Part shown: positions 32,583-50,011 of the stretch, piece after piece
Numbering within the stretch: position 1 is the stretch's first letter
Layout: each line of letters opens with the position of its first letter
Origin: Elusimicrobia bacterium HGW-Elusimicrobia-1
GTDB lineage: Bacteria > Elusimicrobiota > Endomicrobiia > PHAN01
Direction: 5' to 3'
DNA length: 50,011 bases
NCBI GenBank assembly: GCA_002841695.1
Contig: PHAN01000010.1
Location: forward strand, 1-50,011
Notes under the pieces: model-generated
Databases searched by the model: none
The model's input: only the letters and a program-made list of their open reading frames with translations
What the model was told of the DNA's origin: nothing
Made by a program: the position numbers and the translations under genes

Positions 32583-32588
32583 CCGGTG

Positions 32589-33273: not shown

Positions 33274-33293
33274 TCCGGAAATGGCCGGTTCGA

Positions 33294-33376: not shown

Positions 33377-33427
33377 ACATTTTGCCGCCCGCACTCCGGC
33401 GGGAAATAATACAGGAGAATATCCACA

Positions 33428-33814
33428 ATGAAAGTTTTCTTGAAAAAATATTTGCTTTATCTCGTGCGCTGGCAACTCTCGACGCCGATTCTGGCATTTT
33501 GCATTGTATGGTTTGCCGCCTTTGGAACGACCCTCGCTTCGGTAATCGCCAATATTATAGGCGGGCTGATATTCTTCTGGGTTGACAGATGGATATTCAG
33601 GAAGACGAATATCCTCAAAGGAGAGGTTTGGGAAGTTCAACAGGACATTGTCTGTGTGGATTGCGGAAAACCCGCCGATAGGGGCTATCGACTTGTAAAG
33701 GCGTACAACTACGACAGGACGAATGATAAGAGGCCGGAGTTCAGATGTCATGAGTGTTCCCGGCGACAATACGACGAGCAATTTGGAAAGAGAGCCGGAA
33801 TCGCTGAAAGATAA
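33428..33814 (+). CDS. Small membrane protein with zinc-ribbon tail
   Basis: 128 aa. Two hydrophobic helices (about 16-34 and 36-52) span the N-terminal half. The C-terminal half has CVDCG (77-81) and CHEC (106-109), together a likely zinc ribbon facing the cytosol. A caggaga ribosome-binding site supports ATG 33428. A long open frame on the opposite strand is its shadow. I do not recognise the family. It sits between two cutA copies, in front of a DUF1016 nuclease gene. Confidence 0.7.
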   Translation: MKVFLKKYLLYLVRWQLSTPILAFCIVWFAAFGTTLASVIANIIGGLIFFWVDRWIFRKTNILKGEVWEVQQDIVCVDCGKPADRGYRLVKAYNYDRTNDKRPEFRCHECSRRQYDEQFGKRAGIAER

Positions 33815-33965
33815 TTTGAAAAAATAATTTTGCCACTCGTCGGAGTATTGTTTATAGTTAAAGAAAAGAGGGAATAATCCTTGCCGCGGCATATCTAATT
33901 TTATACAATTAAACGCCTGCGCCTCACTCGGGAAACGGGCTTTCGAACAGACCGGGGGACAACCA

Positions 33966-35120: not shown

Positions 35121-35166
35121 GGCAGGGAGAACAGAAGTTGGTTAAAATAGCCCGGTAGAATATCTT

Positions 35167-35475
35167 ATGGGCTTCATAATAATTTATATCACCAACCCCG
35201 ACGTGAAAACCTCCAAGAAAATCGCCTCACACCTCCTCAAGAAACGACTCATCGCCTGCGCCAACTTCTTTCCGATAGAAAGTTCCTATTGGTGGAAAGG
35301 AAAAATCGAAACCGCCCGCGAAGTCGTCGCCATCGTCAAGACGAAAACCTCCAACTGGCCGAAAGTAAAATCCGCCGTCGAGAAACTCCATCCCTACGAG
35401 ACGCCATGCATAATGAAAATCCCGGTCCGGGCGAACGCCGCTTTTGAGGGGTGGATTGAGTCGGAGACGAGATAG
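35167..35475 (+). CDS. cutA: Divalent-cation tolerance protein CutA
   Basis: 102 aa, the usual CutA length. It shows IIYITNPDVKTSKKIASHLL, RLIACANFFPIESSYWWKGKI and EVVAIVKT, and ends with VEKLHPYETPCI plus PVRANAAFEGWI. The trimeric ferredoxin-like fold is well known; copper tolerance was the first phenotype, though its real role is debated. It is an ordinary chromosomal gene embedded in an island, and a decayed copy lies 1.8 kb upstream on the same strand. Confidence 0.95.
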   Translation: MGFIIIYITNPDVKTSKKIASHLLKKRLIACANFFPIESSYWWKGKIETAREVVAIVKTKTSNWPKVKSAVEKLHPYETPCIMKIPVRANAAFEGWIESETR

Positions 35476-35630
35476 GTTAAATATGGGGAAGTGTCACATA
35501 TTTAACCGCCCGAAACACGGCGGCACACCTCTGATTTTCCGTCTTTGTGTTCCTTAGAAAAAAACCGGTATTTTTTTGTATACTACCCTTGACCCATCCA
35601 CTCACCACAAAAACCAAAAGGCGGGACCTT

Positions 35631-37562
35631 ATGAGCGACAAAAAAAGCACCAAGAAAAACCGTTCCGCGATGAACGGCCTCTCTCCCGACATTAAAACCG
35701 AAAAAATCTCTCAATTAAAACAAATCCTCCCCGAAATATTCTCCGAAGACAAAGTAGACCCAGACAAACTCAAACTTGCACTCGGCGACTCGCTCGACAC
35801 CGACGATGAGCGCTACCACCTCGACTGGGCGGGCAAGTCCGAGGCATTCAGAGCCATACAGACGCCCACATCCGCCACCCTCGCGCCCGCCCCCGAAGAG
35901 TCCGTCAACTTCGACGCCACTCAAAATGTTTTTATCGAGGGAGAAAACCTCGAAGTCCTCAAAACCCTCCAGAAATCCTACCACGGCAAAATCAAGATGA
36001 TTTACATAGACCCGCCCTACAACACAGGCAACGACAGTTTCATTTATCCCGACAAATTTTCCGAGTCAAAAGACGAATATCTCAAACGGATAGAAGACAA
36101 AGACGAGTCCGGCTATCTCTTAAAAGAAGGGTTCTTCCGCAAGAACTCCAAAGAAAACGGTCATTATCACTCGAACTGGCTCTCGATGCTCTACCCGCGG
36201 CTTTTCCTCGCCCGCAATCTCCTGCGCGACGACGGCGTAATATTCGTCTCCATAGACGACAACGAAGTCCACAACCTCCGCCTAATGATGAACGAGATTT
36301 TCGGCGAGGAGAATTTTATATCTCAGTTTATATGGAATTCATCAACCGGTGGTGGAATAAGAAGTAAGTATGTTAATCAGAGTCACGAATACTCCGTTTG
36401 TTATGCAAAGAATATAGATAATTTGCCGATGTTTTATGCTGAATTATCGTTAGAAGCCGTCAAACAGTACAACAAAAAGGATAAAAAAGGCATTTACCGA
36501 GAAAAAGATTTCGCGTGGAGAAATGAAGGGAATAACCCCAATCAAAAATATTTCATTACTTGTCCGGATGGAAGTATGGCAAAACCTAAGGAAGGTTATT
36601 TATTTAGATTTATAAAAGAAACATTTGAAGCAGCGTTGAAAAAAGACATGGTTGTTTTTAAAGAAACTAACACAAGCCCTCTAATAGATAAAAATGACAA
36701 TAAAGCAAGGTATAACATTTACATTAAAAAATATTTGGGCGATGGCACTGGGGCGCCTACATCTTTAGTCCCCAAAGATATTGTGGGTATATCCAATATC
36801 GGAACAGAAGAGATAAAAGATTTATTTGATAAAGATGTTTTTAATAACCCCAAATCTACGAGATATCTTAAATATTTAATAAAAGTGGGATCAAAAAATG
36901 AAGAACTTATCCTCGACTTCTTTGCAGGCTCTGGCACCACCGCCCACGCAGTTCTCGACCTGAACAAAGAAGACGGAGGAAACAGAAAGTTCATCTGCGT
37001 TCAACTCCCCGAAAAAACCGACGAGGACTCGGAAGCATACAAAGCCGGCTACAAAACTATCGCCGACATATCCAAAGAGCGCATCCGCCGAGTCATCAAA
37101 AAAATAAAAGAAGAAGAAAAGCAATTGAAACTCGACAAGAAAGAACTGGATTTGGGCTTCAAAGTATTCAAACTCCAGCCCTCAAACTTTAAACTCTGGC
37201 GCGGCGACACAATCGAAAACGGCGCCGATCTCGAAAAGCAATTAGACAACTTCAAATATCCCGTCAAGCCCGCAGCCGTCCAAACGAACATCCTCTGGGA
37301 ACTCATAATCAAATCCGGCTACGACCTCACAACCAGAATCGAAAAAAAGAAAACCGCCGACGGCAAACCCTACTACTCCATAGCCGACGGAGAAACCATA
37401 ATCGCCCTCGACAAACTCGACGCCAAAACCGTAAAAGAAATCATAAAACAAACCCCGAAAAAACTCATCACCCTCGACACATCCTTCGACGACAATGACC
37501 AACTCAAGACCAACACGGCTCTGCAACTAAAGGATGCGGAGATTGAGTTTAGGGTGGTGTGA
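35631..37562 (+). CDS. mod: Type III restriction-modification methyltransferase (Mod)
   Basis: 643 aa from ATG 35631 (a longer in-frame start at 35547 is less likely). N6-adenine methyltransferase with the beta-class order: YIDPPYNTGND (motif IV, DPPY at 127-130) before LDFFAGSGTTAHAV (motif I, about 430). Between them lies the target-recognition region (about 235-420). It is encoded by visibly A+T-rich DNA, while both flanks are G+C-balanced, so this part was probably exchanged. Mod recognises a short asymmetric site, protects it by methylation and guides the Res subunit encoded at 41.2 kb. The C-terminus LKDAEIEFRVV is duplicated downstream. Confidence 0.96.
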   Translation: MSDKKSTKKNRSAMNGLSPDIKTEKISQLKQILPEIFSEDKVDPDKLKLALGDSLDTDDERYHLDWAGKSEAFRAIQTPTSATLAPAPEESVNFDATQNVFIEGENLEVLKTLQKSYHGKIKMIYIDPPYNTGNDSFIYPDKFSESKDEYLKRIEDKDESGYLLKEGFFRKNSKENGHYHSNWLSMLYPRLFLARNLLRDDGVIFVSIDDNEVHNLRLMMNEIFGEENFISQFIWNSSTGGGIRSKYVNQSHEYSVCYAKNIDNLPMFYAELSLEAVKQYNKKDKKGIYREKDFAWRNEGNNPNQKYFITCPDGSMAKPKEGYLFRFIKETFEAALKKDMVVFKETNTSPLIDKNDNKARYNIYIKKYLGDGTGAPTSLVPKDIVGISNIGTEEIKDLFDKDVFNNPKSTRYLKYLIKVGSKNEELILDFFAGSGTTAHAVLDLNKEDGGNRKFICVQLPEKTDEDSEAYKAGYKTIADISKERIRRVIKKIKEEEKQLKLDKKELDLGFKVFKLQPSNFKLWRGDTIENGADLEKQLDNFKYPVKPAAVQTNILWELIIKSGYDLTTRIEKKKTADGKPYYSIADGETIIALDKLDAKTVKEIIKQTPKKLITLDTSFDDNDQLKTNTALQLKDAEIEFRVV

Positions 37563-37599
37563 AACAAATCCTTACAAATAGCAATATTGAGTGGCAAAA

Positions 37600-38640
37600 A
37601 TGAAAGTGAAAGACATTAAAAAAATTTTAAGTCGTCTTTTAACAGATGAATTAAGATACAGAAGTTTTGATTATGGTACTTTTGATGAGTATTCTAAAAA
37701 ATATAAGCCCCTGTACGAGTTTACCATCAGTTTTCACGGAACGCCTAAAATACAAGAAAATCCTCAGCAATATAATCCCATAGGTTGTAATTATGAGGGA
37801 TTGAATAAATTATATTCGCAAGTTAATGAAAGACAAAAAAACGTTATTATTAAATATTTAGAGGCCAGTTTAAATTTTGATGTGGCAACTGGTTATCATA
37901 AGTTGCTCTTGGCATTTTTAATTCGAAACCATTTTTGCGATTTGGTTTTAAGCAAAATACTCAATAAAAAACATAATAATTTAGATGTTCAAGCTATCAA
38001 CGATTTGGTGTTCATTGTAAGGTTTGAGCACAATAAGTTACCAGATAAATTTCTGAAGATATTGGCTAAATATATAAACAAAAGAAACAATATAGCAGAC
38101 GTAAAATTGAAGGAATCGCTACGGATTTTGGGGCTTGTCATAGATCAGATAGAACATTTTAGAATTATTCATTTCTTGGTAGAAGATGAAAACTATGAAA
38201 TAGTCAAAGATGCAGAAAAAGTGTTGTCTTATTTTGAAAAGTACAAATTTAAAAAAGATTTTACTGAGGCATTAAAGGAAATTGAAAAACGAATAAATAG
38301 CCTTGGCACTAAATTCGATTTCAAGCATTCGTGCGATTTAATTAGAAGCTTGTTGGAGAATTTTAATGTGGAGTTGGCTGAGAAGATATCCATAAAAACT
38401 AAAGTTCCACCTTCTATAGGAACCAAAAATAGAAATCAAGAAGCATTAAACTATTTGGTTAAAAATGGAGTCAATTTCCTCGCACAAAAAGAAATTGATT
38501 TATGTAGTAAACTTTATGGGTTGCTTTCAGATAAATCCGGACACAGGCTTTTTTCAGACAAAGAGTATGCGCGGGTAGCTAAAAACTATACGCTTGAATG
38601 GTGCTATATGTGTCTGACAATTTTGGATAAGTATTTATAA
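37600..38640 (+). CDS. A+T-rich cargo gene with abortive-infection-like C-terminus
   Basis: About 346 aa (ATG 37600; GTG 37591 possible). The first 250 residues are helical and unrecognised. The last 60 (LLSDKSGHRLFSDKEYARVA, then a helix ending in TILDKYL) resemble the C-terminal domain of abortive-infection-type proteins, where a short segment before a closing helix carries Ser/His and E-Y-A-R. The DNA is much richer in A+T than mod and res. It lies between mod and a second, decayed mod 3' end, which shows that it was inserted. A defence role is plausible but unproven. Confidence 0.6.
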   Translation: MKVKDIKKILSRLLTDELRYRSFDYGTFDEYSKKYKPLYEFTISFHGTPKIQENPQQYNPIGCNYEGLNKLYSQVNERQKNVIIKYLEASLNFDVATGYHKLLLAFLIRNHFCDLVLSKILNKKHNNLDVQAINDLVFIVRFEHNKLPDKFLKILAKYINKRNNIADVKLKESLRILGLVIDQIEHFRIIHFLVEDENYEIVKDAEKVLSYFEKYKFKKDFTEALKEIEKRINSLGTKFDFKHSCDLIRSLLENFNVELAEKISIKTKVPPSIGTKNRNQEALNYLVKNGVNFLAQKEIDLCSKLYGLLSDKSGHRLFSDKEYARVAKNYTLEWCYMCLTILDKYL

Positions 38641-38705
38641 CAATTCGATAGAATATTCGAGAGCGGTTTTGATGCTTCCATAGAGCGGTTCCTATTTTCT
38701 GCATA

Positions 38706-38741
38706 CTTAAAGACGTGAGTGTGGAGTTTCGGGTGGTGTGA
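38706..38741 (+). pseudogene. Remnant of a second mod 3' end
   Basis: The 36 bases read LKDVSVEFRVV and stop; the functional mod gene ends in LKDAEIEFRVV at 37527-37562. Eight of eleven residues and both stop contexts (gggtggtgtga) agree. It is the trace of an earlier or displaced mod terminus and brackets the A+T-rich gene. Confidence 0.8.
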
Positions 38742-38766
38742 ATAACATAGAAACAAGTGAGGAGAA

Positions 38767-39600
38767 ATGGTCCGCCGCTATTACAGCTTAAGAACCAAAC
38801 CCGGGAGCATCACCCTTGAGGAACTCTACCGCAAGATTCAGAATCTGTATCTCATGTTTCGCAATAAGGATTATTTCAAAAAGAAAGCCGGTATCACAGA
38901 GTTTCATTTTCCCGATACAATTCAACACGAAGCGGCGGTCGCCCTTACTTTTCAACCATTCCCTATTGCAAAGTGGTCATCGGATGACATCACAGAAGAC
39001 CATATTTTTGACACCCTTGAATTCCTCTATGACTATGCTTCCAAACCAGGGGAATTGACTGATATGACGACGGACACAGGATATAACTACCGCGATTACG
39101 GTGATTATGATGACGAAGCAGGGCAAAAAGAATTCAGGGATAAGGTCAATGCGTTTCTCGCCGACTACAAGACCGGATTTGAGTTGACCAAAGACGGCAT
39201 TGTTTTGGCGTTGGGAACAGGCGGACTTCAACATATATTGGATGCAGAAATCATTCCTTACGATGAGATAAATGTTGATAGCAAGGTTCGAAATGCAATT
39301 TCAAAATGGCGGAACCGCCATTTGTCCCTGTCAGAAAAAAAGAACGCCATACAAGAACTTGCCGATGTGTTTGAGTGGCTCAAAGATACCCAAAATCTCG
39401 GCAGTGTATTGAAGATAAAGGATGAATCGATGATATTTAACATTGCAAACAATTTTGGTATTCGCCACCACAATTCGCTACAAAAAACAAACTATGACCA
39501 TACGATTTGGTACTCATGGATATTCCATTTCTATTTAGCGACTTACCACGCCACTATTCGACTATTGCTCAAGAAAGAAAAGTCTAAATTAAAAGTATAA
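38767..39600 (+). CDS. HEPN-like protein embedded in the type III R-M locus
   Basis: 277 aa, cytosolic. The N-terminal part contains SITLEELYRKIQNLYLMF and an acidic Asp-Tyr-rich loop. The C-terminal half is helical and carries NNFGIRHHNSLQKTNYDH, followed by an aromatic helix with an LATYHA segment. The R-H-H-N plus downstream His resembles HEPN ribonuclease signatures, though the fold assignment is tentative. The start has gaggag very close by. It is placed between mod and res without a frame overlap, so it is probably co-expressed with them. Confidence 0.6.
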   Translation: MVRRYYSLRTKPGSITLEELYRKIQNLYLMFRNKDYFKKKAGITEFHFPDTIQHEAAVALTFQPFPIAKWSSDDITEDHIFDTLEFLYDYASKPGELTDMTTDTGYNYRDYGDYDDEAGQKEFRDKVNAFLADYKTGFELTKDGIVLALGTGGLQHILDAEIIPYDEINVDSKVRNAISKWRNRHLSLSEKKNAIQELADVFEWLKDTQNLGSVLKIKDESMIFNIANNFGIRHHNSLQKTNYDHTIWYSWIFHFYLATYHATIRLLLKKEKSKLKV

Positions 39601-39649
39601 TTTATGAAACTCCATTCCGACCTAAACAGTAAAATAATAAAAACATAGA

Positions 39650-41134
39650 ATGGCCAAACACCACATCTTCATCAGTGGCTCACAGAAGGAACTCGGCGCG
39701 GAGCGGCGGGCGGTGAAGGATTCCATCCTCGGCGATGTTCTTCTTTCCGAATATTTCGACGTCTTCCTGTTCGAAGACGCTCCGGCGAAGGGCCGCCCGG
39801 ACGAGACGGCATATCTCGACGAAGTCCGCAAGAGCGATATTTATATCGGCATTCTCGGCGACAGATACGGCGCCGCCGGCAAGAATAAAATCTCTCCGAC
39901 GGAAACGGAGTTTCACGCGGCAAAAGCCGGCGACAAAGACATACTCATTTATATCAAAGGCGCGGGCGCCAAGGACAAGAACCGCGAATTGGGCGTACAG
40001 AAACTTATCAAAGAAATCAAGAATCCCGCGGCGGGATATTGTTATCGCCGGTTTGATTCCGTCGAAGAACTGACAGGGCTTGTTTACGAAAGTTTGATTA
40101 ACTTCTTAAAGGAAAAAGGCGACATTGGCCGCGCCGAGTTCGACCGCCGCATCTGTGACGGCGCCGGATTTGCCGATATAGACGATGAAAAAGTCAAATG
40201 GTTTTTGAATGTCGCCCGCCGGATGAGGAATTTCCCGCTGGGGTTGAACTCCACTACGCAGGAAGTTTTCACTCATCTGAAACTTTTCAAGGACGGCAAA
40301 CTCACCAACGCCGCGGTTTTGCTGTTCGGCAAAGAGCCGAGGAAGTTTTTCGATCAGGCCAACGTCAAATGTATTCAGTTGCCGAGCACCGAGGTCGAAA
40401 AACCTTTCGTGTCATATCAGATTTACGACGGGAATCTTTTTGAGCAGGTGGACAAAGCCGTCGGCTTCGTGCTGGACATTCTCAAGTTCCCCGTGATTCA
40501 GCAGGAGCACACTACGGCGGTCGCCCGTCCCCGCGAAATACCGGTTTTTGCGATCCGCGAGGCGATAGTCAACGCCGTCGCCCACCGCGACTATAACGCC
40601 AAATCGTCGGTTCAGGTTATGGTCTTTCTCGACCGTGTGGAAATCTGGAATTCCGGCTCATTGCCCATTCACCTTAAAATAGACGACCTCAAAAAACCGC
40701 ACGGCTCTCACCCGTCAAACCCGCTATTCGCTTCGGCGATGTATCTTGCCGACTACATTCAGCAGGCGGGCTCCGGGACTTTGGAGATGCTCAAGCAATG
40801 CAAAGAGCACGGCCTTCCCGAGCCGCAGTTCGTGTCGGTGCGGAATCTTGAGTTTAAAACCATTTTGGCAAGGGATTTATTCACGGAAGACGCTTTGTCG
40901 CGGATGGGTTTGAACGAGCGGCAGTTGAAAGCGGTCAAGTATGTCAAGCAAAATGGGCGCATCACGAATACCGAGTATCAACGAGTTTTGACGGTCAGTA
41001 AACGACAGGCGACAAATGACCTTAATGAACTTGAGAAAAAAGAAATACTAAGTCGTTTCGGTAAAACCGGCAGAGGGACATTTTACACCCTAAGGGGCAC
41101 TAAAGGGGCAAAAGGGGCACCAAAGGGGCATTAA
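39650..41134 (+). CDS. DUF4062 - HATPase - winged-helix protein
   Basis: 494 aa in three parts. Residues 1-90 form a DUF4062 domain (HHIFISGSQKELGAERRAVK, SDIYIGILGDRYG). A central part (about 200-380) has the RecG-related HATPase_c_4 type ATP-binding fold with REAIVNAVAHRDY, VEIWNSGSLP and QQAGSGTLEML. A C-terminal winged helix (about 415-480) follows: TNTEYQRVLTVSKRQATNDL. The tail is encoded by a tandem repeat and reads KGAKGAPKGH. Such proteins occur in defence islands as putative regulators or sensors. It sits just before res. Confidence 0.85.
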   Translation: MAKHHIFISGSQKELGAERRAVKDSILGDVLLSEYFDVFLFEDAPAKGRPDETAYLDEVRKSDIYIGILGDRYGAAGKNKISPTETEFHAAKAGDKDILIYIKGAGAKDKNRELGVQKLIKEIKNPAAGYCYRRFDSVEELTGLVYESLINFLKEKGDIGRAEFDRRICDGAGFADIDDEKVKWFLNVARRMRNFPLGLNSTTQEVFTHLKLFKDGKLTNAAVLLFGKEPRKFFDQANVKCIQLPSTEVEKPFVSYQIYDGNLFEQVDKAVGFVLDILKFPVIQQEHTTAVARPREIPVFAIREAIVNAVAHRDYNAKSSVQVMVFLDRVEIWNSGSLPIHLKIDDLKKPHGSHPSNPLFASAMYLADYIQQAGSGTLEMLKQCKEHGLPEPQFVSVRNLEFKTILARDLFTEDALSRMGLNERQLKAVKYVKQNGRITNTEYQRVLTVSKRQATNDLNELEKKEILSRFGKTGRGTFYTLRGTKGAKGAPKGH

Positions 41135-41140
41135 AGGGGC
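41092..41140. repeat. Tandem aaaggggca repeat across a stop codon
   Basis: Five imperfect units of 10-11 bases (taaggggcac, taaaggggca, aaaggggcac, caaaggggca, ttaaaggggc) run through the last codons of the HATPase gene and over its TAA. Slippage here would change the C-terminal tail and move the stop. Confidence 0.8.
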
Positions 41141-41175
41141 AATTTTGCATTTCAATAAGTGAACCGCAACCAATC

Positions 41176-41239
41176 TTGCGTCTCGCTTTTGGCTCAGAAT
41201 GAGACGCAAATAGTTTTGTTAATATTTAGTGAGACGCAA
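41176..41239 (+). promoter_or_regulatory. Triple GAGACGCAA site before res
   Basis: Three exact copies of a 9-base word: ttgcgtctc (inverse) at 41176-41184, gagacgcaa at 41201-41209 and at 41231-41239. The third copy ends 2 bases before the res start codon, in the place of a ribosome-binding site. The first two form an inverted repeat with a 16-base gap. It looks like an operator for a dimeric repressor of res, or a site for the Mod protein. Confidence 0.6.
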
Positions 41240-41241
41240 GA

Positions 41242-43893
41242 ATGAAACTCCACTTCGACCCGAACCAGCGATACCAGATTGAGGCGATAAACTCTGTCGT
41301 CGACATCTTCGAGGGCCAGCCGCTAAACAAGAGCGATTTTGAGTTTTCGCTCAAACCCGCCGCGGGCGGACTTTTCTTCGGCGAAAACGGCGTCGGCAAC
41401 AACCTTATTCTCTCCGAAAAACAGATTCTCGAAAACCTCCGTGTCGTTCAGGCAAAAAACGGCATCAGGCAGTCGAAGGAACTCGACGGGATGAACTTTT
41501 CCGTCGAGATGGAAACCGGAACCGGCAAGACATACGTCTATCTGAGAACCATTTACGAACTAAATAAAAACTACGGCTTCAAGAAGTTCATAATAGTCGT
41601 GCCGAGCGTCGCCATTAGGGAGGGCGCGCTCAAAAACCTTGAAATCACCGAGGAACACTTCCGCTCTCTCTACGGCAAAACCCCGGCCAATTACGAGGTC
41701 TACGACGCCGCCAAGGTGTCGGGCATAAGAAACTTCGCGCTCAGCAATTCCGTTCAGATTCTCGTCATAAACATCGATTCATTCGCCAAAGATATAAACA
41801 TAATGAACCGCCCCAACGATAAACTCAACGGAAGAAAACCCGTGGAGTTTCTACAGTCGGTCCGGCCTGTCGTCATCGTGGACGAGCCGCAGAATATGGA
41901 GACCCAAATAAGAAAGGCCGCCATAGCGAACCTGAACCCTTGCTGCACTCTCCGCTATTCGGCCACGCACACCAATCTTTACAATCTCGTTTACAGTTTG
42001 AATCCCGTCAACGCCTACGATATGGGTCTCGTCAAACAAATCGAGGTGGACTCGGTTCTGACGGAGAATGATTTCAATCGTGCGTTCGTTCAACTTGAAA
42101 GCGTCTCCTCGACGAAAACCAGGACATCGGCGAAAATACGCATAGACATTAACGGCAAAAAAGGCGTTGAGCGAAAAATCGTGACCGCAAAAGTCGGCGA
42201 CGACCTTTATGAATTATCGAACAAAAGAGAGAACTACAAAACCGGCTATATCGTCAACGAAATAGATGTTTCCAATCAATGCGTAACCTTTTCGAGCGGC
42301 GATATGCTTCGCGTGGGCGACTCGCGCGGCGGTCTGCGCGACGAAGTGATGAAAGAGCAGATGCGAAAGACCGTCGAAGAGCATTTTCAGAAGGAAAGAA
42401 AGTACAAAGAAAAAGGTGTCAAGGTACTTTCGCTTTTCTTTATAGACCGCGTGGCAAACTACCGCGCCTACGACGACGCCGGCAATTCTCAAAAGGGAAA
42501 GTTCGCGCTATGGTTTGAAGAAATATACAAGGCGCTCGCCGAAAAAGAAGCGTTCAAGGGTGTGATTCCATTTGACGCCGGCAAAGTCCATAACGGATAT
42601 TTCGCCCAGGACAAAAAGGGGATTTTCAAGGACTCGTCGGAAAACCGCGAAACGCAGGCCGACGACAACGCCTATCATTTGATAATGAAGGACAAAGAAA
42701 AACTCCTCGACCCCGCTAATTCTTTGAGGTTCATATTCAGTCACTCGGCATTGAGAGAGGGCTGGGACAACCCGAATGTATTTCAGATTTGCACGCTCAA
42801 CGAAACCCGCTCGGAGCTAAAAAAACGTCAGGAAATCGGCCGCGGTTTGCGGCTCTGTGTCAACCAGAACGGCGACAGGATACTCGACAAGAACGTCAAC
42901 ATTCTGACCGTAGTGGCGAACGAAAGTTACGACGACTTCGCGTCCAAACTCCAGAAGGAAATCCAGGAAGATTGCGGCGTGGAGTTTACCGGCAGATTGA
43001 AAGACAAGCGTGACAGAAAAAAGGTTTCGCTGCGGAAGGGTTACGAAGCCGACGCAAGGTTTATCGAACTCTGGAACAAAATCAAGCACAAGACGACTTA
43101 TAATGTCGAATATGAAACCGCCGAACTGATTAAGAGGGCTTCGTCGGCGATAAACAAGATGCCGGCGGCGCGCGCTCCCGTCATAAAAAGTGTTAAAACA
43201 CATTTGGAGATGCTTCGTGAAGGTGTCGGCGGAAAGCAGGTCGGCATAAGCATAAGAGAAGCGTACGACACAAGTATCGAGGTGCCCGACATTCTCGGAT
43301 ATATTCAGGGTAAAACCGACCTCACGCGCTCGACGATACTCGATATTTTGAAAAAATCCGGACGCCTCGGCGACGCGCTCAAAAACCCGCAGTTGTTTCT
43401 CGATATGACCGTCGCCGAAATCAAAAACATTCTCAACGAAATGATGGTCGACGGCATCAAATACGAGAAAATCGGCGGTCAGGAATACTCGATGATGTTA
43501 TTCAAGGACGTCGAAATAGAAAGTTACATAGGAAATCTTTACAAAGTCAAGAATCAAGACAAGACCATCGCCGACCACATAGAAATCAGTTCTATGTCGG
43601 AAATAGAAAGAAAGTTTGCCGAGGACTGCGAGAACACCGAAAACGTGGAGTTTTTCTTCAAACTTCCGCGCGGCTTCAAAATAAAGACGCCGCTCGGCGA
43701 TTACACCCCCGACTGGGCGTTGATTTTCAAAAACGAAAAGAAACTCTACTTCGTCGCCGAGACCAAGGGCTCGCTCGACAAAATAGACCTTCGCGGCGGA
43801 GAAAACCTCAAAATCAAATGCGGCGCGGCGCACTTCAAAGAACTCCCCGGCGTGACTTTCAAAACGGCGACGAAACTTGAGGATTTGCTCTGA
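41242..43893 (+). CDS. res: Type III restriction enzyme, Res subunit
   Basis: 883 aa. Superfamily 2 helicase: METGTGKTYVY (Walker A, 93-97), IVDEPQNME (motif II near 214), RYSATHTN, and QEIGRGLRLCVN (motif VI near 530). A C-terminal PD-(D/E)xK nuclease follows, with TPDWALIF (about 822-830) and VAETKG (about 838-843). It forms a complex with Mod and cuts DNA at a distance from two inverted unmethylated sites. All motors and nuclease residues are intact. The start lacks a classical ribosome-binding site because gagacgcaag occupies the position. Three genes and 3.7 kb separate it from mod, which is unusual. Confidence 0.96.
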   Translation: MKLHFDPNQRYQIEAINSVVDIFEGQPLNKSDFEFSLKPAAGGLFFGENGVGNNLILSEKQILENLRVVQAKNGIRQSKELDGMNFSVEMETGTGKTYVYLRTIYELNKNYGFKKFIIVVPSVAIREGALKNLEITEEHFRSLYGKTPANYEVYDAAKVSGIRNFALSNSVQILVINIDSFAKDINIMNRPNDKLNGRKPVEFLQSVRPVVIVDEPQNMETQIRKAAIANLNPCCTLRYSATHTNLYNLVYSLNPVNAYDMGLVKQIEVDSVLTENDFNRAFVQLESVSSTKTRTSAKIRIDINGKKGVERKIVTAKVGDDLYELSNKRENYKTGYIVNEIDVSNQCVTFSSGDMLRVGDSRGGLRDEVMKEQMRKTVEEHFQKERKYKEKGVKVLSLFFIDRVANYRAYDDAGNSQKGKFALWFEEIYKALAEKEAFKGVIPFDAGKVHNGYFAQDKKGIFKDSSENRETQADDNAYHLIMKDKEKLLDPANSLRFIFSHSALREGWDNPNVFQICTLNETRSELKKRQEIGRGLRLCVNQNGDRILDKNVNILTVVANESYDDFASKLQKEIQEDCGVEFTGRLKDKRDRKKVSLRKGYEADARFIELWNKIKHKTTYNVEYETAELIKRASSAINKMPAARAPVIKSVKTHLEMLREGVGGKQVGISIREAYDTSIEVPDILGYIQGKTDLTRSTILDILKKSGRLGDALKNPQLFLDMTVAEIKNILNEMMVDGIKYEKIGGQEYSMMLFKDVEIESYIGNLYKVKNQDKTIADHIEISSMSEIERKFAEDCENTENVEFFFKLPRGFKIKTPLGDYTPDWALIFKNEKKLYFVAETKGSLDKIDLRGGENLKIKCGAAHFKELPGVTFKTATKLEDLL

Positions 43894-43926
43894 TGTGTGA
43901 AAGAATCTAAGGCGGAGGTGGAAGAA

Positions 43927-44058
43927 ATGGCAAAACTTGGAAGGTCAATTAAAGGTCACGCAGCTCTTAAAAGAAAAGCCAAAAAAATGGGCATAATAAT
44001 CTCGAAAGGGAAATTCGGCAGAGTCGCCAGTTTCCACGCACCAAGAAAAAAGAAATAG
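43927..44058 (+). CDS. 43-residue basic protein after res
   Basis: Short open frame with an excellent ribosome-binding site (ggcggaggtgg, 6 bases before ATG). The product begins MAKLGRSIKGHAALKRKAKK and ends with FHAPRKKK; about a third of residues are Lys or Arg. It lies 33 bases after res and could be co-transcribed with it. No family is recognised; nucleic-acid binding would fit the charge. Confidence 0.65.
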   Translation: MAKLGRSIKGHAALKRKAKKMGIIISKGKFGRVASFHAPRKKK

Positions 44059-44185
44059 ATTATTTACACTATTCGAATATTTCCAAAGCGTTATGCCCGA
44101 TTGCGTATGCCATTGTAGCCGCCGGGAATAGGCCTGATTTTGCCCTTGTAACGGACGAATCATTTGGGAAAATCCTTGCCATCTC

Positions 44186-44235
44186 AAATCCCCCCTCATT
44201 CCCCCTTTAATAAAGAGGGACAAGCGAGGGATTTT
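44186..44235. repeat. Inverted repeat of the AATCCCCC/GGGGGATTT family, copy 2
   Basis: Left arm aaatcccccctcattccccc, centre tttaataaag, right arm agggacaagcgagggatttt. It matches the copy at 2409-2456 in order and spacing with small changes, so it spans both core and island. It interrupts an open segment (44.06-44.19 kb, reading AYAIVAAGNRPDFALVTD) that may be another gene remnant. Confidence 0.7.
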
Positions 44236-44253
44236 CTACAAAGCCCAGAAAAA

Positions 44254-44397
44254 CAGGTAAAAGTTAAAAAATACGAACACCAAATTGACCAGATGGTTTA
44301 TAAATTATACGACATAACCGAAGATGAAAAAAATTGTAGCAGGATAAAATATGTTTTGTGGGCGATAATTGGTAAGCAAGAGAAGAAAAAAAGTTAA
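44254..44397 (+). pseudogene. Tail of a restriction-type DNA methyltransferase
   Basis: The frame reads QVKVKKYEHQIDQMVYKLYD then ITEDEKNCSRI. The segment IDQMVYKLYDITEDE is the characteristic C-terminal end of Eco57I/TaqI-like N6-adenine methyltransferases. Nothing upstream of it belongs to such an enzyme; the repeat at 44186-44235 precedes it directly. It is therefore a remnant, although a small functional peptide cannot be excluded. Confidence 0.6.
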
Positions 44398-44440
44398 GTC
44401 TGATTGCGCAAATAACATATAAAGCAAAGGAAGATTTGTT

Positions 44441-45895
44441 ATGGTTGATATAAAACAAATGAAAAAATATGTTCAAAAATATTCTGTTGAGCGTAATCAG
44501 CCCTGCTTATGTGGGAGTGGCAAGAAATATAAAAAATGCTGTGAGCCGTATATTGATGAAAGACAAAAAAATATTTCCAAAACTCCTGATTATGATGATT
44601 TAGCTATTAAATACTTAAATAAGAAACAATATGCTGAGGCAGAACTATATTTTAGAGCACATTTAACGCAATATATAATATGGTATAACGAGCAAACAAA
44701 ACCTTTTTATAAAGAAGAACCTGAGGCCGCAAAAGATATCTATCTAATCGATATTGATGCAATCAATGAAATTGCTGATTTTCTTGTTAAAGCATTGTAT
44801 CGGCAAAATAAAATCAAAGAAATACACCATTTATATGAGAACTTAGTTGATATTATTGATAACTCTGTATATCGTTTTTATATTGATACGCAAAGGGCAT
44901 ATTGGCTTGATTATGACAAAATGAATGATAAAGCAGTACTAATTATGGATGGATATTTAAACAAAGAACTTGATGAAATACCATTGACGTATCTCGGTAT
45001 AAAGTCATTAGTGTTTTATTTGTATTTTTTACATTTGAGATTACCAGCTGTCACTTCTTTCAAAATATTAGATAAATTACTCAGAGTAGCTGAAGACTAT
45101 TACTCTATGTTATATTTTTTAACTCAAAAGGCAAGGATTGCTTTCATGCATAATGATACTAATTTGGCTAAAACAAGCGCTGAACAACTCTTAAAAGAAT
45201 TACGGAAAATTTCATCTGCGGATATAAGTAATTCACGAGAAGTGTATGCTTTATTGCCCGATACATACCAAATGGTTGCCATAATTCTTAATGATGATAA
45301 ATACTATCGAAGTCTAATAGAGATATGTGAGCAGAATATTCTAAGATATCGGGAAGATAAGAAATTTTTAGCATCTCAATACCATGCAATAGGGCAAGCA
45401 TATACTAGTTTAAAAAAACTTGATAAAGCCAAAGAATCTATTTTAAAGTCACTAGCATTAGATAAAAGAGATGAATACCAATTAGACCTTGTAAAAGTAT
45501 TTTTGAAATTGGAAGAACAAAAAAGTGCATTAAAAGTACTTAATGAAATTAAGTACGATAAATTAGAAGAGAATTTAAAGATTGATTATTTATCGTACTT
45601 TGTTGATGTGGCTTTAACAAATAAGGACAAAAATATTGCTGTCCAAACCGAGAAGAAATTAGCAAATTTACGAATAGTCATTCCATATTTTCAGATGATG
45701 ACAAATGATTTTCGTTCCTTGCTATTAGATTTTATTTGTGGTAAATATGGAAATGATACGTTGATTATTCGCTTGAAAAAATTTGCTGCAAGAAACTTAA
45801 TATTACAACCCAACTTCTTTGGAATTGGTATTAACCTCAATGAAATATTGGTGCCTAAAGATAAAGGGGAAAATGGGAACGCTTTACATTTTTAG
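44441..45895 (+). CDS. SEC-C motif protein with TPR-like repeats
   Basis: 484 aa, A+T-rich. Residues 19-34 form a SEC-C zinc motif (NQPCLCGSGKKYKKCC; Cys22, 24, 33 and 34). The rest is helical with tetratricopeptide-like units, clearest near 315-375 (YHAIGQAYTSLKKLDKAKES, VFLKLEEQKSALKVLNEI). SEC-C domains bind SecB or other partners and are common fusions in defence and stress proteins. A kaggaag-type ribosome-binding site (aaaggaagattt) supports ATG 44441. It stands alone between a methyltransferase remnant and the cassette array. Its task is unknown. Confidence 0.75.
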   Translation: MVDIKQMKKYVQKYSVERNQPCLCGSGKKYKKCCEPYIDERQKNISKTPDYDDLAIKYLNKKQYAEAELYFRAHLTQYIIWYNEQTKPFYKEEPEAAKDIYLIDIDAINEIADFLVKALYRQNKIKEIHHLYENLVDIIDNSVYRFYIDTQRAYWLDYDKMNDKAVLIMDGYLNKELDEIPLTYLGIKSLVFYLYFLHLRLPAVTSFKILDKLLRVAEDYYSMLYFLTQKARIAFMHNDTNLAKTSAEQLLKELRKISSADISNSREVYALLPDTYQMVAIILNDDKYYRSLIEICEQNILRYREDKKFLASQYHAIGQAYTSLKKLDKAKESILKSLALDKRDEYQLDLVKVFLKLEEQKSALKVLNEIKYDKLEENLKIDYLSYFVDVALTNKDKNIAVQTEKKLANLRIVIPYFQMMTNDFRSLLLDFICGKYGNDTLIIRLKKFAARNLILQPNFFGIGINLNEILVPKDKGENGNALHF

Positions 45896-46042
45896 ATTTG
45901 AAAACTTGAAAAAATAATTTTGAGAAAATATTATTAAAAATCACTTAAAATATGATCCAACTTCCAAATACCAATTTATTTATCGGTAATATAAATGATC
46001 TTCGCAATGCAAACGATCAAGATTGGGCTTTCGTAGTCCGCT

Positions 46043-46070
46043 TTTACTTCTTATACGGACTGCATAATAT
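46043..46070 (+). promoter_or_regulatory. Possible promoter at the left edge of the cassette array
   Basis: tttact, a 16-base spacer and taatat lie just before the first cassette boundary (gttaggc at 46073). A stem gtccg/cggac overlaps the spacer. Integron arrays need an external promoter for promoterless cassettes, so the position is suitable, but the hexamers are only moderate. The preceding gap (45896-46042) is A+T-rich and holds nothing else clear. Confidence 0.25.
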
Positions 46071-46095
46071 ATGTTAGGCGTATCAAGGAGCCAGT

Positions 46096-46800
46096 GTGCC
46101 GAACACCAGAGCTGAAGCCTTGCGTGAGATACTTGACGATCTTGCAGCCTTTGAACTTGACCTAAACGCCTACTACGGCGATGCCGAACCCCAAGGCGTT
46201 TACGACAGCGTTCTCTCGGGCAAGATCAACAGCCTGCGCGCGTTCTGCCAAACACTGGGCTGGTCCGAACTTGTGGCCCATATGCAAGGTATGACACCGC
46301 TTCAATGTAACGCCGTTGAGTCCTTGGGCCGTATCAAGGGGTTCGTCATTCCAGAGGCACGCAGACTGCTCGCGGTATCCGACATTGAGAGCCCGCCTAG
46401 CCCAACACAGTGGTTCTGGCAGTTCGTGCATCCAAGAATATGCGCTCTCGCGCGTCCACGATATGAGGCCGGGTTCTTCGGCGACGCAGTCGAAGCGTCG
46501 TTCAAGGAGGTCAATGACGCCGTGAAGCGCATTGTCCGCGAGTCCGATGGACGAGAGTTGGACGGCGCCAGTCTAATGAGCACAGCCTTCTCGCCACAGA
46601 ATCCGGTCATTCGCCTTACGGAGCTATTGACCGAGACGGACCGCGGCATCCAACAGGGATACATGCAGATAATGGCCGGGTCCATGACGGGCATCCGCAA
46701 TCCGAAGGCTCACGAAAACCTGAATCCAGATAGCTCGAAGGCGTTACATATGATCTGCTTGGCAAGTCTGCTCATGCACAAGATTGACGAACGCATCTGA
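46096..46800 (+). CDS. TIGR02391-family protein (cassette 1)
   Basis: 234 aa with GTG start and an aaggag ribosome-binding site. The C-terminal half fits the TIGR02391 (Ymh) family: FKEVNDAVKRIVRES, MSTAFSPQNPVIRL, GYMQIMAGSMTGIRNPKAHE. The latter motif resembles a HEPN-type R-N-x-x-A-H. Family members occur in phages and defence islands and their role is not established. The gene is G+C-rich, unlike the A+T-rich gene before it, as expected for an independently acquired cassette. It ends 22 bases before the attC R'' box. Confidence 0.75.
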   Translation: MPNTRAEALREILDDLAAFELDLNAYYGDAEPQGVYDSVLSGKINSLRAFCQTLGWSELVAHMQGMTPLQCNAVESLGRIKGFVIPEARRLLAVSDIESPPSPTQWFWQFVHPRICALARPRYEAGFFGDAVEASFKEVNDAVKRIVRESDGRELDGASLMSTAFSPQNPVIRLTELLTETDRGIQQGYMQIMAGSMTGIRNPKAHENLNPDSSKALHMICLASLLMHKIDERI

Positions 46801-46822
46801 GGGCGTGCCAAGTGAAAGATAC

Positions 46823-46891
46823 GCCTAACCCTTCCATCGAGCGGACAGCCCGCGGCAAGCCGCGGTCTGCCGCTCATGTCAAACGTTCGGG
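46823..46891 (+). other. attC site of cassette 1
   Basis: R'' box GCCTAAC (46823-46829) and R' box GTTCGGG (46885-46891). Between them gagcggacagcccgcggc pairs with gccgcggtctgccgctc, leaving single unpaired bases on one arm, which is the folded-strand signal used by integron integrases. The boundary lies between G46885 and T46886. Confidence 0.85.
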
Positions 46892-46900
46892 ATACTAATA

Positions 46901-47410
46901 ATGAAAAGAATTCTGTTGTCTATCTTGCTCATCGGTGTCGCAACCCCATGTTTTGCCAAGGCGTACTATGCTGGAAAGAAGGAGATGATACAGAAAGCCG
47001 AAGTCATTGCCATCGTCAATATCACAAAGGTACAAGAGACAGAAAAGAAGGGGAATCACTGGACATACCGCCAGAAAGTATTAGGCACCGTGGAGCGTTG
47101 CCTGAAGGGGAATGCAAAAGGAGAGATCGAAATCTACGGGATGGAAACTTTCATCTGTGCCCAGTGTCGTTATGAGGCGGGACGATTCATCCTCTTCCTC
47201 CGGAGGGAAAAAGGGTTCTGGGTGGGCTCTAACTGGCATCTTGGTATTCGCTCAATTGCAAAAGATCAGGTTCAGTGGTTCAAGGGTGGTGAGAACCGTT
47301 TCGAGATGATGGGAACGCCTCTTGCTGACGTCGTTGACGAAATTGGCGCTGTCGTGAAAGAGCAGAAAAAGGGAACGCCTAACAAACCGGATGCAGGCGA
47401 CGGCAAATAG
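46901..47410 (+). CDS. Secreted protein of unknown function (cassette 2)
   Basis: 169 aa with a signal peptide (MKRILLSILLIGVATPCFA). The mature part holds AEVIAIVNITKVQETEK, VERCLKGNAKGEIEIYG and FICAQCRYEAGRFILFL with a Cys-x-x-Cys. This resembles small secreted domains of mixed beta type, but no enzyme motif is seen. The last ten codons and stop lie inside attC2, a common feature of cassette genes. It is the only gene of its cassette, 14 bases after the boundary. Confidence 0.75.
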   Translation: MKRILLSILLIGVATPCFAKAYYAGKKEMIQKAEVIAIVNITKVQETEKKGNHWTYRQKVLGTVERCLKGNAKGEIEIYGMETFICAQCRYEAGRFILFLRREKGFWVGSNWHLGIRSIAKDQVQWFKGGENRFEMMGTPLADVVDEIGAVVKEQKKGTPNKPDAGDGK

Positions 47411-47435
47411 CCGCGCCTGATCCGCAACGTTAGTC
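47377..47435 (+). other. attC site of cassette 2
   Basis: R'' GCCTAAC (47377-47383), R' GTTAGTC (47429-47435), 59 bases in total. The arms ggatgcaggcgacggc and gccgcgcctgatcc pair with two unpaired bases (a G and an A) on the left arm, the classical 59-base-element design. It overlaps the end of the secreted-protein gene. Confidence 0.9.
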
Positions 47436-47446
47436 TCGGGAAAAAT

Positions 47447-48220
47447 ATGAAACTGAACCCCGGTCACTTTATGCTTGCCGTCATTACGGCGATGTTTATA
47501 GCCGTAAACGCCAAAGCGGATCTTGAAGAACTTGATCCCGATGTGCAAGATAGACAACTTGCCATGGCCGAGGAGTTGTACATTAAAAAAGACGTAAATG
47601 GCCTGCTAAAACTCCTTAGAGATTCACACCTCTTCATCAAGACGGATGTTGCACTCAAGTTGGGACGACTTGGTGCAAGAGAATCCTTGGCGAACCTTCG
47701 GGAATACGACGAACACTACTCTCGCTTTGCATGTATGCCATCCGGCGAGTTTGGCGTCGCAATCATTCTCATTGAAAATAAAACTCCGGACAGCCAAAAG
47801 AAAGCCCTGCTTGCCATCGCCACGGAAACTGGTAACAAGACAAAGCACACACACAGCGTTATCAACGCAGCAGGAAGAGAACTCAGCAGGTTCGAGGGCG
47901 ATGATGTTATTAGCGCATTAGCGGATGTCAATACATATGGTGCTCAACATACAGTGCTTACGCTTCAATGCAAAAAGTTATCTACGTCAGATGCCATTGC
48001 AAAATGCATTACTGTCTTGGAAACTCACCAGACCCCACAGAAAGCCGAAGCTGCTCAATATCTTCTTGCAACTTTTGGCAGCAAAGCAGAATTGCCAGTC
48101 CAAGCACTGAAGGCCCGAATGGAAAAGAAAATAAACCCCACGGATCCGACTTTCACAATACCCAAGACGATAATAAATCGTTGCAATCGTATTCTGGAAA
48201 AGATTAAAGAGAAAGAATAG
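47447..48220 (+). CDS. Exported HEAT-like repeat protein (cassette 3)
   Basis: 257 aa with a signal peptide (MKLNPGHFMLAVITAMFI to about NAKA) and a helical mature part. Repeating units such as IKTDVALKLGRLGARESLAN and HQTPQKAEAAQYLLATFGSK suggest HEAT-like helices. A gggaaa ribosome-binding site is present. No known domain can be named. It belongs to the cassette starting at 47430 and ends next to the weak attC3. Confidence 0.7.
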   Translation: MKLNPGHFMLAVITAMFIAVNAKADLEELDPDVQDRQLAMAEELYIKKDVNGLLKLLRDSHLFIKTDVALKLGRLGARESLANLREYDEHYSRFACMPSGEFGVAIILIENKTPDSQKKALLAIATETGNKTKHTHSVINAAGRELSRFEGDDVISALADVNTYGAQHTVLTLQCKKLSTSDAIAKCITVLETHQTPQKAEAAQYLLATFGSKAELPVQALKARMEKKINPTDPTFTIPKTIINRCNRILEKIKEKE

Positions 48221-48286
48221 GTTAACCAATTACTGCACCCGAGCAAAATCGCAAGCGGTTTGGACAGGCGAGTTCTATCGTTAGTA
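48220..48286 (+). other. Degenerate attC site of cassette 3
   Basis: R' GTTAGTA at 48280-48286 is clear. The R'' counterpart (ggttaac at 48220-48226) departs from the RYYYAAC rule, and the internal hairpin is weak (actgcacc with ggcgagt). It is placed by position between two cassette genes and by the downstream gene starting 7 bases after it. Confidence 0.5.
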
Positions 48287-48292
48287 ACTCCA

Positions 48293-48973
48293 ATGGAAAC
48301 GAAGACACAAGCTTTGAATCGGCTATTCACTAGATGGATACGGACCTATCCGCAAACGGCCCACGACGGATTTCATCGAGATGGAATTATTGCCGAGAGG
48401 GAGTTCGCACGGCAACCTAACCGTATCCTTTTCGTTCTTGCCGAACCCAATAGCACCGGCGGTCGCTTCGTTCGTTATCGAGGCGCTGATCTTCGAAAAG
48501 TCTTTGGGGAGGAAAAACTTAACAAACCCTTAACACGGAATCTTGGGCTTTGGACTCAAATGCTTCTGGATGGCTCATCAAGATATCACGTCTTGAGCCC
48601 CAGCAAGTCGCAGGTTCAAATTCGGCGGATCGCGATAATGAATCTTAAGAAATTTAGCGGTTCAGGCAAGGCGGATTATGCTGGCATTGGCCTTCATGCT
48701 TGGCATGATCGTGCTTTCATTCGGCGACAGGTTGCCATAATTTCTCCGAACCTTATCATAACTTGCGGCGAGAGAATTCATAAGGTTTTCGGTGCTGTAA
48801 TGCATGATAATCGGTTCTGGTCAACTGAAACCAGTTGGAAATGGAACGTGGCGCCAGTTGAGAATGTTCAACATCCAGCGACGCGCGGTAGAAATACTCT
48901 CCCAGCATTTCGTCGTTTACGCGAAATCGCCCGCAAAAATCGGGTGCTAACAACGTGTTCCAGCCGACTGTAA
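48293..48973 (+). CDS. Uracil-DNA glycosylase-like protein (cassette 4)
   Basis: 226 aa from ATG 48293. It contains ILFVLAEPNSTG, IAIMNLKKFSG, SPNLIITCGERIHKVFG and VQHPATRG. In order and spacing these match the substrate-loop, Asn-Lys, P-x-x-I-x-x-G and H-P-[ST] landmarks of uracil-DNA glycosylase-like enzymes. Activity is not proven because the pattern is loose. The C-terminal residues (TTCSSRL) are encoded by the start of attC4. It is the last intact cassette gene. Confidence 0.55.
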   Translation: METKTQALNRLFTRWIRTYPQTAHDGFHRDGIIAEREFARQPNRILFVLAEPNSTGGRFVRYRGADLRKVFGEEKLNKPLTRNLGLWTQMLLDGSSRYHVLSPSKSQVQIRRIAIMNLKKFSGSGKADYAGIGLHAWHDRAFIRRQVAIISPNLIITCGERIHKVFGAVMHDNRFWSTETSWKWNVAPVENVQHPATRGRNTLPAFRRLREIARKNRVLTTCSSRL

Positions 48974-48975
48974 AA
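48945..48975 (+). other. Truncated attC site of cassette 4
   Basis: TGCTAAC (48945-48951) followed by aacgtgttccagccgactg is the left half of a standard attC. The right half and the R' box are missing, because sequence with an IS end begins at 48976. Confidence 0.65.
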
Positions 48976-49185
48976 TGTAATTGAAAACTGCCTCCCTGAA
49001 GGTAAAGTTGCCCTTACCCATGGAGTAAAATACTCCCGATTGAAGCGGCAATACGTGCGGCGGGAGGAAGGATGGATAGGATACAGGAATTTGGGCAGCT
49101 AAAACACGAGAGTCAGCCCGGCTTGAAACGGCATTTGATTCTGCTATAATCGTCAATGGCCGGGCGGGGTCAGTTTTCGATTACA
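48976..49185. mobile_element. 210-bp IS-end-flanked remnant or miniature element
   Basis: The left end tgtaattgaaaactgcctcc and the reverse complement of the right end tgtaatcgaaaactgacccc agree in 17 of 21 positions and resemble ends of IS21-type elements. There is no transposase inside. A 25-codon open frame (49072-49149) with a good ggaggaagg ribosome-binding site may be a transposase-gene beginning or a chance frame. No target-site duplication is evident. Confidence 0.65.
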
Positions 49186-49454
49186 ACGGGGGCAAGATTC
49201 GGTTACATTGTACACTGGTATTCATTCTCCACTATGAACTCCAAATACAAATCAATGCAGCGTAGCAGCACTGCTCTGCTGTGCTCAATCGGATGAAAGA
49301 AAAAAGCCCTAAAGGACGAGAGTGCACCCGATTTGTCCGACAAAAGCGACTGCCGAGTTAATGGCAGTTATAAGCAATGCGCAGAAACAAATAAAAGAAA
49401 GCTTGAAGAATCTGCAAAAGTAATCTCGGGGTATGGGCAAGAAGGAGGATGATG
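49186..49454. other. Non-coding gap between IS remnant and last gene
   Basis: Nothing convincing apart from a small inverted repeat actgcc / ggcagt (49349-49354 and 49363-49368) and the ribosome-binding site of the next gene (aaggagg, 49442-49448). The missing right half of attC4 is not found here. Confidence 0.5.
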
Positions 49455-49985
49455 ATGGGTTCAACACGATACCACACAAGTCAATCTGCCGAATTTTTTG
49501 TTTACTCACAATTGCACAGATTAGAACTCAATGCTGTAATTACTTTAGGAAATGCAAAGGCCGTAGACATATTAGTTTATACACAAAGTAAAGAAACCCT
49601 AAAATTCGATGTTAAAGGGCTGAAAGTTAATAATTATTTTCTCGGCCTTAATGATTCAATCTGTGATAAATGTTTCTTTTACTGTTTTGTAATCCTCGGT
49701 AAAGATCCCACAGTCATGCCTATTGTCGGCATTGTGCCGTCCGATAAGTTGAAATTAATCTGTAATTATTGGAAAAGCAAAAACACTAAAAAAGACTATT
49801 CTGTACCTTCAAAGACAATATCTTATCTTCTGGCTAAAGAGTACGAGAAGGCGGCAGATTATATAATGAATGTTGTAAAATCAGACCAGGGATTCAAGGA
49901 AAATAAAGTTCTGTATGACCATATAAAAAACAAGGTGATTGTAAAAGATTTGGCACTAAAGTATAATAGTGTCAATGAAACTTGA
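49455..49985 (+). CDS. Small PD-(D/E)xK-like nuclease candidate
   Basis: 176 aa from ATG 49455 (two earlier ATGs are too close to the aaggagg ribosome-binding site). The N-terminal part has a helix with Glu13 (SAEFFVYSQL), then AVDILVY with Asp38 and LKFDVKG with Asp52-x-Lys54. This E...D...D-x-K order is typical of PD-(D/E)xK folds. The remainder contains a Cys-x-x-Cys (DKCFFYC region), a VGIVPSDKLKLI strand-helix and a charged tail. It may be a restriction-like nuclease of the island, complete within the window. Confidence in the fold is moderate. Confidence 0.5.
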   Translation: MGSTRYHTSQSAEFFVYSQLHRLELNAVITLGNAKAVDILVYTQSKETLKFDVKGLKVNNYFLGLNDSICDKCFFYCFVILGKDPTVMPIVGIVPSDKLKLICNYWKSKNTKKDYSVPSKTISYLLAKEYEKAADYIMNVVKSDQGFKENKVLYDHIKNKVIVKDLALKYNSVNET

Positions 49986-50011
49986 AACCTTTGAGTTCGT
50001 CGGAAAAAGCG

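Follow-up and report, generated by a model that had tools for sequence, protein, structure and literature searches.

In integrons, the integrase recombines attC, in the form of a folded bottom strand, with attI or with another site, and new cassettes enter an array at its proximal end. A cluster of attC sites lacking integron integrase (CALIN) is defined in IntegronFinder by at least two attC sites (PMC9024848), with a spacing below 4 kb (PMC9668308); CALINs have already been described from many phyla, metagenome-assembled genomes (MAGs) included (PMC9024848, PMC9668308). Here, we describe four same-strand genes between positions 46073 and 48968 of contig PHAN01000010.1 (C10) from Elusimicrobia bacterium HGW-Elusimicrobia-1. 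The window analysed is this entire contig of 50,011 bp; the genome comprises 2.06 Mb in 25 contigs and is 96.9% complete. With a probability of about 0.9, the locus is a CALIN of four integron gene cassettes, which an integrated and probably mobilizable island carries as cargo. It is a real and traceable case of a known array kind, not a new system.

The cassettes and their sites attC1 to attC4 are numbered from left to right. As in a CALIN, two attC sites (attC1 and attC2) lie 0.5 kb apart, the genes share one strand, and no integron integrase is found beside them (a gap between the contigs C10 and C1 is unseen). The locus differs in that its carrier is an integrated element bearing a MobF relaxase and in that, of the two further sites, one is decayed and the other has been cut by an insertion sequence. 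Compared to class 1 mobile integron cassettes, attC1 shares 88% identity with that of dfrB9 (Comamonas testosteroni NZ_CP043574), whereas intI1, attI1 and a resistance gene are absent and the cargo genes are of unknown or defence-like function. With the Vibrio superintegron the array shares a relative of cassette 4, which lies between Vibrio cholerae repeats (VCRs) in Vibrio sp. HDW18; in contrast to the VCRs of approximately 127 bp, however, the attC sites of the array measure 59-69 bp and are unlike each other. Integron-carrying integrative mobilizable elements such as Salmonella genomic island 1 (SGI1, PMC2297512) are likewise integrated islands with a recombinase and integron cassettes as cargo. 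Unlike these, the present island has tRNA-His as target, a MobF relaxase and a type III restriction-modification system, but neither an integron integrase nor resistance genes.

In order to detect attC sites, a covariance model (R1; 48 positions, 16 pairs) was trained on 14 attC cores from plasmid integrons and from integrase-bearing genomes of the host's phylum; no sequence of the window was among them. Since the terminal loops vary, aligning entire attC sites with MAFFT gave no usable basis for a model, and cut cores were taken instead. In the complete 2.06 Mb, R1 yielded only two matches up to E 10, namely attC1 and attC2, both in the array. The score of attC1 was 34.8 bits, corresponding to E 3.3e-5 across the 2.06 Mb, whereas attC2 obtained 22.1 bits (E 0.0018 within the window); the next best match in the window had 8.9 bits, and attC3 had 7.4 bits. 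A box-and-stem scanner that is independent of R1 ranked attC2 first in the window (18.7 versus 12.3 for the next candidate). When the gaps were shuffled, the layout score of attC1 and of attC2 was reached in 0 of 300 cases each, and that of attC3 in three of 300. Folding of the bottom strand gave z values of -5.25 for attC1 and -6.09 for attC2 (0 of 200 shuffles). Both folds show single unpaired bases and an unpaired central spacer; extrahelical bases and such a spacer are characteristic of attC hairpins (PMC2727003).

As a positive control, R1 found five attC sites of 26-30 bits beside the integron integrase of G326, a member of the host's class, and it also found an attC array in the class member G246. 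As a negative control, 91 of 96 class genomes were without a match and five had one at E <=0.1 under stricter filters; in the same search, the congener G330 gave no attC match. The long VCR sites are not detected by R1 and were found by means of the scanner and by reading. The left flank of cassette 1 was considered as a further attC and rejected (8.9 bits with R1, z -0.99). In G246, the integron integrase and an attC array of the class type lie on different contigs (C16 and C23; L083, L101).

A preliminary description of this DNA had claimed four genes on one strand, separated by real attC sites, two of which were said to have perfect hairpin arms carrying unpaired bases. The four open reading frames (ORFs) are present at the claimed position. 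The hairpins are correctly described for attC1 and attC2, as bottom-strand folds with the expected single unpaired bases, and these two strong sites also provide the two or more significant matches to a covariance model that had been proposed as support. Weaker than the claim of real sites implies are attC3, which is degenerate, and attC4, of which only the 5' half is left.

The borders of the cassettes lie at the G^TT of each R' box (46073, 46885, 47429 and 48280; Table 1). The box consensus R'' RYYYAAC / R' GTTRRRY is matched by attC2 (GCCTAAC/GTTAGTC) and by attC1, in which GCCTAAC is combined with GTTCGGG in place and with GTTAGGC in the circle. When cassette 1 is closed as a circle, its ends GATACGCCTAAC and GTTAGGCGTATC are complementary in 12 of 12 positions; each 12-mer occurs once in the window. 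The stop codon of the cassette 2 ORF falls within attC2. The remaining half of attC4 pairs, with one G-T, with the R' box GTTAGTA at the start of cassette 4, and the last codon and the stop codon of this cassette extend into the end of the insertion sequence. At the left junction, the boxes GCATAA-tatatg-TTAGGC face each other weakly and would suit an attI or a genomic site alike. Upstream of the array, two promoter-like sites were found versus 1.1 expected, which is no excess over chance.

Table 1. Features of the array and of its carrier island. Positions refer to the window (C10) or, where indicated, to contig C1.
Feature	Position	Strand	Details
Left junction of array	46073	+	G of G^TTAGGC; bare G^TT junction, AT-rich flank (27% GC), no attC
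Cassette 1	46074-46885	+	812 bp, 57% GC; ORF 46096-46800, TIGR02391/PF09509 (Ymh, HEPN superfamily), motif RNPKAH
attC1	46823-46891	+	R'' GCCTAAC, L'' CATcGAGCGGaCAG, L' CTGCCGCTCATG, R' GTTCGGG; two unpaired bases on R''-L'' arm
Cassette 2	46886-47429	+	544 bp; ORF 46901-47410, 169 aa, signal-peptide-like N-terminus, no family
attC2	47377-47435	+	R'' GCCTAAC, L'' CGGATgCAGGCGaCGGC, L' GCCGCGCCTGATCCG, R' GTTAGTC
Cassette 3	47430-48280	+	851 bp; ORF 47447-48220, 257 aa, signal-peptide-like N-terminus, weak HEAT similarity
attC3, degenerate	48220-48286	+	GGTTAAC ... GTTAGTA; attC-like spacing and bulge, weak stem
Cassette 4, 3' end cut	48281-48968	+	ORF 48293-48973, 226 aa, remote similarity to uracil-DNA glycosylase superfamily
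attC4, 5' half (R'' and L'' kept)	48945-48968	+	R'' TGCTAAC, spacer AACGT, GTTcCAGCCGAC
Insertion-sequence remnant	48969-49214		Facing ends TGTAAAATGTAA.. / ..TTACATTGTACA
Island, left part	30630-50011		Continues at C1:1-5753; 45-bp repeat of tRNA-His 5' half (30630-30674) at edge
Tyrosine recombinase of island	30603-31766	-	Phage_integrase, not an integron integrase; runs into tRNA-His
DUF1016/YhcG PDDEXK nuclease	33966-35120	+	PADLOC candidate PDC-S02
Type III restriction-modification locus	35547-43893	+	Mod 35547-37562, Res 41242-43893, DUF4062 gene 39650-41134 between them
MobF relaxase	C1:716-3373	-	TrwC PF08751 179 bits; NF041492 170 bits vs NCBI cut-off 100

An integron integrase (TIGR02249, cut-off 265 bits) was not found above the cut-off in the 2.06 Mb, with the gap between C10 and C1 unseen; the best matches in the genome are other tyrosine recombinases with at most 81 bits. 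This result supports the CALIN reading; the preliminary description had proposed a CALIN-type array or the far end of an integron, with the integrase placed outside the window. A complete integron, with intI and attI beside the array, is not present on the contig: the left neighbour is a SEC-C/TPR gene. Without an integrase, the cassettes cannot be shuffled from within. attC1 and attC2 look intact, however, and could be mobilised by an incoming integron integrase.

The sequence of attC1 points to an origin outside the host's class. Its arms agree in 39-40 of 44 positions with those of proteobacterial cassettes of one family (40 of 44 for dfrB9, aac(6')-Ib and a Methylibium cassette), whereas agreement with the attC sites of the class members G246, G326 and G328 is limited to 20-28 of 44. 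attC2 is unlike the proteobacterial and class sites that were compared and is also unlike attC1. Sedentary integrons have arrays of similar attC sites and mobile integrons have mixed ones (PMC8352920). Judged from these few sequences, the array appears to be of the mixed kind, and we infer that at least the attC1 cassette is foreign to the class of the host.

The preliminary description regarded the cassette proteins as mostly without known function. This does not apply to cassette 1, whose product is a predicted RNase of the HEPN family PF09509/Ymh. It scores 94 bits with PF09509 (cut-off 25), contains the Rx4-6H motif as RNPKAH (R-x4-H), and matches the PADLOC models PD-Lambda-3_B and Aga_HEPN. 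Ymh is among the HEPN families with a conserved Rx4-6H motif and occurs in an operon with restriction-modification genes (PMC3710099). Most likely, the protein is a HEPN RNase that would act in defence or as a toxin. A 78% identical protein that keeps RNPKAH is encoded in a MAG named Syntrophaceae (L047), with an attC-like site of 16.9 bits directly 3' of the gene. A further relative, in a MAG named Desulfobacteraceae (L048), is also followed by an attC-like site (11.2 bits with R1, 16.2 with the scanner).

For cassette 4, the Pfam uracil-DNA glycosylase (UDG) family was matched with 15 bits, which is below the gathering score of 24.3, and membership is not claimed. A profile of four relatives matches the UDG structure 4zbx (E 0.00027 over 73 positions), a hint that the protein may be UDG-like. 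A single-sequence structure prediction of this protein had a mean pLDDT (predicted local distance difference test) of 32 and was not used. The relative in Vibrio sp. HDW18 mentioned above is 29% identical and starts directly behind its attC. Two more relatives are placed likewise: that of G328 is truncated, with 56% identity across 77 residues, and directly follows an attC scoring 20.1 bits, and that of G185, in the host's phylum, directly follows an attC-like site. The G328 contig in question (C20, L095) belongs to a 100% complete class genome and contains two attC sites; no integron integrase was listed for this genome in the phylum search at E 1e-40, and the cassette 4 relative breaks off after approximately 80 residues. 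Two of the four cassette genes thus belong to families that travel as cassettes.

The proteins of cassettes 2 and 3 start, as judged by reading their sequences, with putative signal-peptide stretches; no relative was found in 341 genomes of the phylum nor in 72,556 plasmids. Likewise, the plasmid search yielded no match for attC2 and the attC4 half, a search of viral contigs none for cassettes 1, 3 and 4, the left flank and the attC4 half, and single-sequence searches of solved structures none for cassettes 1, 2 and 4. The same genes in fixed order but without attC sites, which the preliminary description had named as the contrary case, were sought in relatives and not found. With no conserved gene order in relatives, the four genes do not represent an operon that is conserved in the lineage.

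The preliminary description located the array in the chromosome. The contig does contain 30 kb of chromosome, but the array itself lies within a probably mobilizable island at tRNA-His, which had been missed. The tRNA-His gene is at 30595-30670, and its 45 bp at 30630-30674 recur at C1:5754-5798. In the congener G330, one contig contains valS, rdgB, tRNA-His, tRNA-Arg and an HD-GYP gene, with tRNA-His directly beside tRNA-Arg; here, C10 contains valS, rdgB and tRNA-His, whereas C1 contains tRNA-Arg and the HD-GYP gene. From the repeat and the congener we infer that C10 and C1 join, and the repeat together with the uninterrupted site in G330 indicates that an island was inserted at tRNA-His, which spans C10:30675-50011 and C1:1-5753 and thus measures 25.1 kb or more. 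A radical-SAM gene left of tRNA-His has no ortholog in G330 and was abandoned as a synteny marker in favour of valS-rdgB and the HD-GYP gene. Because the left 30 kb of C10 are collinear chromosome, the array is not a binning error. A recombinase, direct end repeats, an uninterrupted site in a relative and a relaxase, which together characterise an integrative mobilizable element, were all found, and the island is, by its gene content, probably mobilizable.

The island also carries the SEC-C/TPR gene and, on C1, a 479-aa protein without family. The latter (L063, 3436-4875, minus strand) has no Pfam or NCBIfam match, and its position beside the relaxase suggests a putative plasmid replication protein. 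Two ORFs without Pfam family (37591-38640, AT-rich, and 38767-39600) occupy 37591-39600 between Mod and the DUF4062 gene. The last codons of the island recombinase are tRNA sequence, and the 45-bp repeat corresponds to the 5' half of the tRNA instead of the usual 3' end. Near the facing contig ends, positions 49934-49960 of the window and 50-76 of C1 form a 27-bp inverted near-copy, perhaps a repeat that broke the assembly. The right end of the insertion sequence recurs at C1:426-522 and, with approximately 30 bp, beside an rve-type (IS3-like) transposase gene on C5; an IS21-like identity was dropped, as the end is common to the rve-type element. Beside the insertion-sequence end on C1 (340-460), two copies of GCGTGGATTGAAACG 60 bp apart resemble a decayed pair of clustered regularly interspaced short palindromic repeats (CRISPR). 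The copy of this remnant in the window carries GGCTTGAAACGGC (49100-49125).

The array may have arisen as follows. An integron integrase, acting in trans or encoded beside the array and since lost, would have recognised the folded bottom strands of the attC sites of cassette circles. Recombination would have occurred in the R' box, with cassettes added successively from the left end; cassette 4 would have come first and, as the oldest, would later have been truncated by the insertion sequence. The island, with its own recombinase and MobF relaxase, would have brought the cassettes or acquired them en route.

Several points weigh against this account. Only two attC sites are beyond doubt, and R1 was built for this analysis and is not a published attC model. 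Taken by itself, attC2 misses genome-wide significance (E 0.074), although its distance from attC1 is 0.5 kb, and the folding energy of attC3 is near chance (z +0.71, no better than shuffles). The halves of the island are on separate contigs, so that an integrase could be hidden in the gap, and the site that received cassette 1 may have been attI or another. That the four genes form an ordinary operon of small genes, with terminator-like inverted repeats in the gaps and no integron involved, would agree with the common strand and with there being only two strong sites. This reading is extremely improbable and is refuted by the attC matches and the cassette relatives: R''/R' boxes, spacers and unpaired bases follow in attC order, one site matches with 34.8 bits and is 88% identical to a class 1 integron attC, relatives lie in true cassette arrays, and gene order is not conserved in relatives.

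The absent integrase could instead mean that the array is the end of a complete integron, whose intI and attI either fall into the unassembled stretch separating C10 from C1 or until recently stood beside 46073. In favour of this, the assembly consists of 25 contigs at 96.9% completeness, 1 kb of C10 is left beyond the array, and the class members G246 and G326 do possess an integron integrase above the cut-off. Furthermore, the facing boxes of the left junction GCATAAtatatGTTAGGC recall a simple site such as attI1 (GCCCTAAaacaaaGTTAG in L011), but with a resemblance of only five of seven positions. We consider such an integron unlikely: the gap lies distally, where the array is cut, whereas intI and attI belong proximally, the gene left of 46073 is the same-strand SEC-C/TPR gene and not a divergent intI, and the genome lacks an integron integrase above the cut-off. 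Somewhat less doubtful, yet still the weaker option, is an entry of the cassettes after the island had landed in the host, via an integrase in the cell and at a genomic site other than attI (attG type). The missing recognisable attI and a flank that is AT-rich like the neighbouring island gene would agree with it, and insertion of cassettes at attG sites has a precedent (Loot et al. 2024, as cited in PMC12901181). However, attC1 is of the proteobacterial and not of the class type, and neither this genome nor that of the congener G330 contains an integron integrase above the cut-off.

As a CALIN on an island, the array is a well-anchored example of cassettes away from any integron, on a probably mobilizable element, adjoining restriction genes and with relatives in other phyla. 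It leaves the general understanding of integrons unchanged. Four cassette genes are added: those of cassettes 2 and 3, of putatively secreted type, have no relative in the searched data, and one is a likely HEPN defence gene. The latter is in keeping with integrons having recently come to be seen as reservoirs of anti-phage genes; anti-phage cassettes are common among integron cargo according to Darracq 2025, Getz 2025 and Kieffer 2025, as cited in PMC12444791. It is a speculative notion, to which we give rather little credence, that relaxase-bearing tRNA islands act as integrase-free carriers of cassettes, defence genes included, between phyla. If this were true, cassettes would spread well past the range of the integrons that built them.

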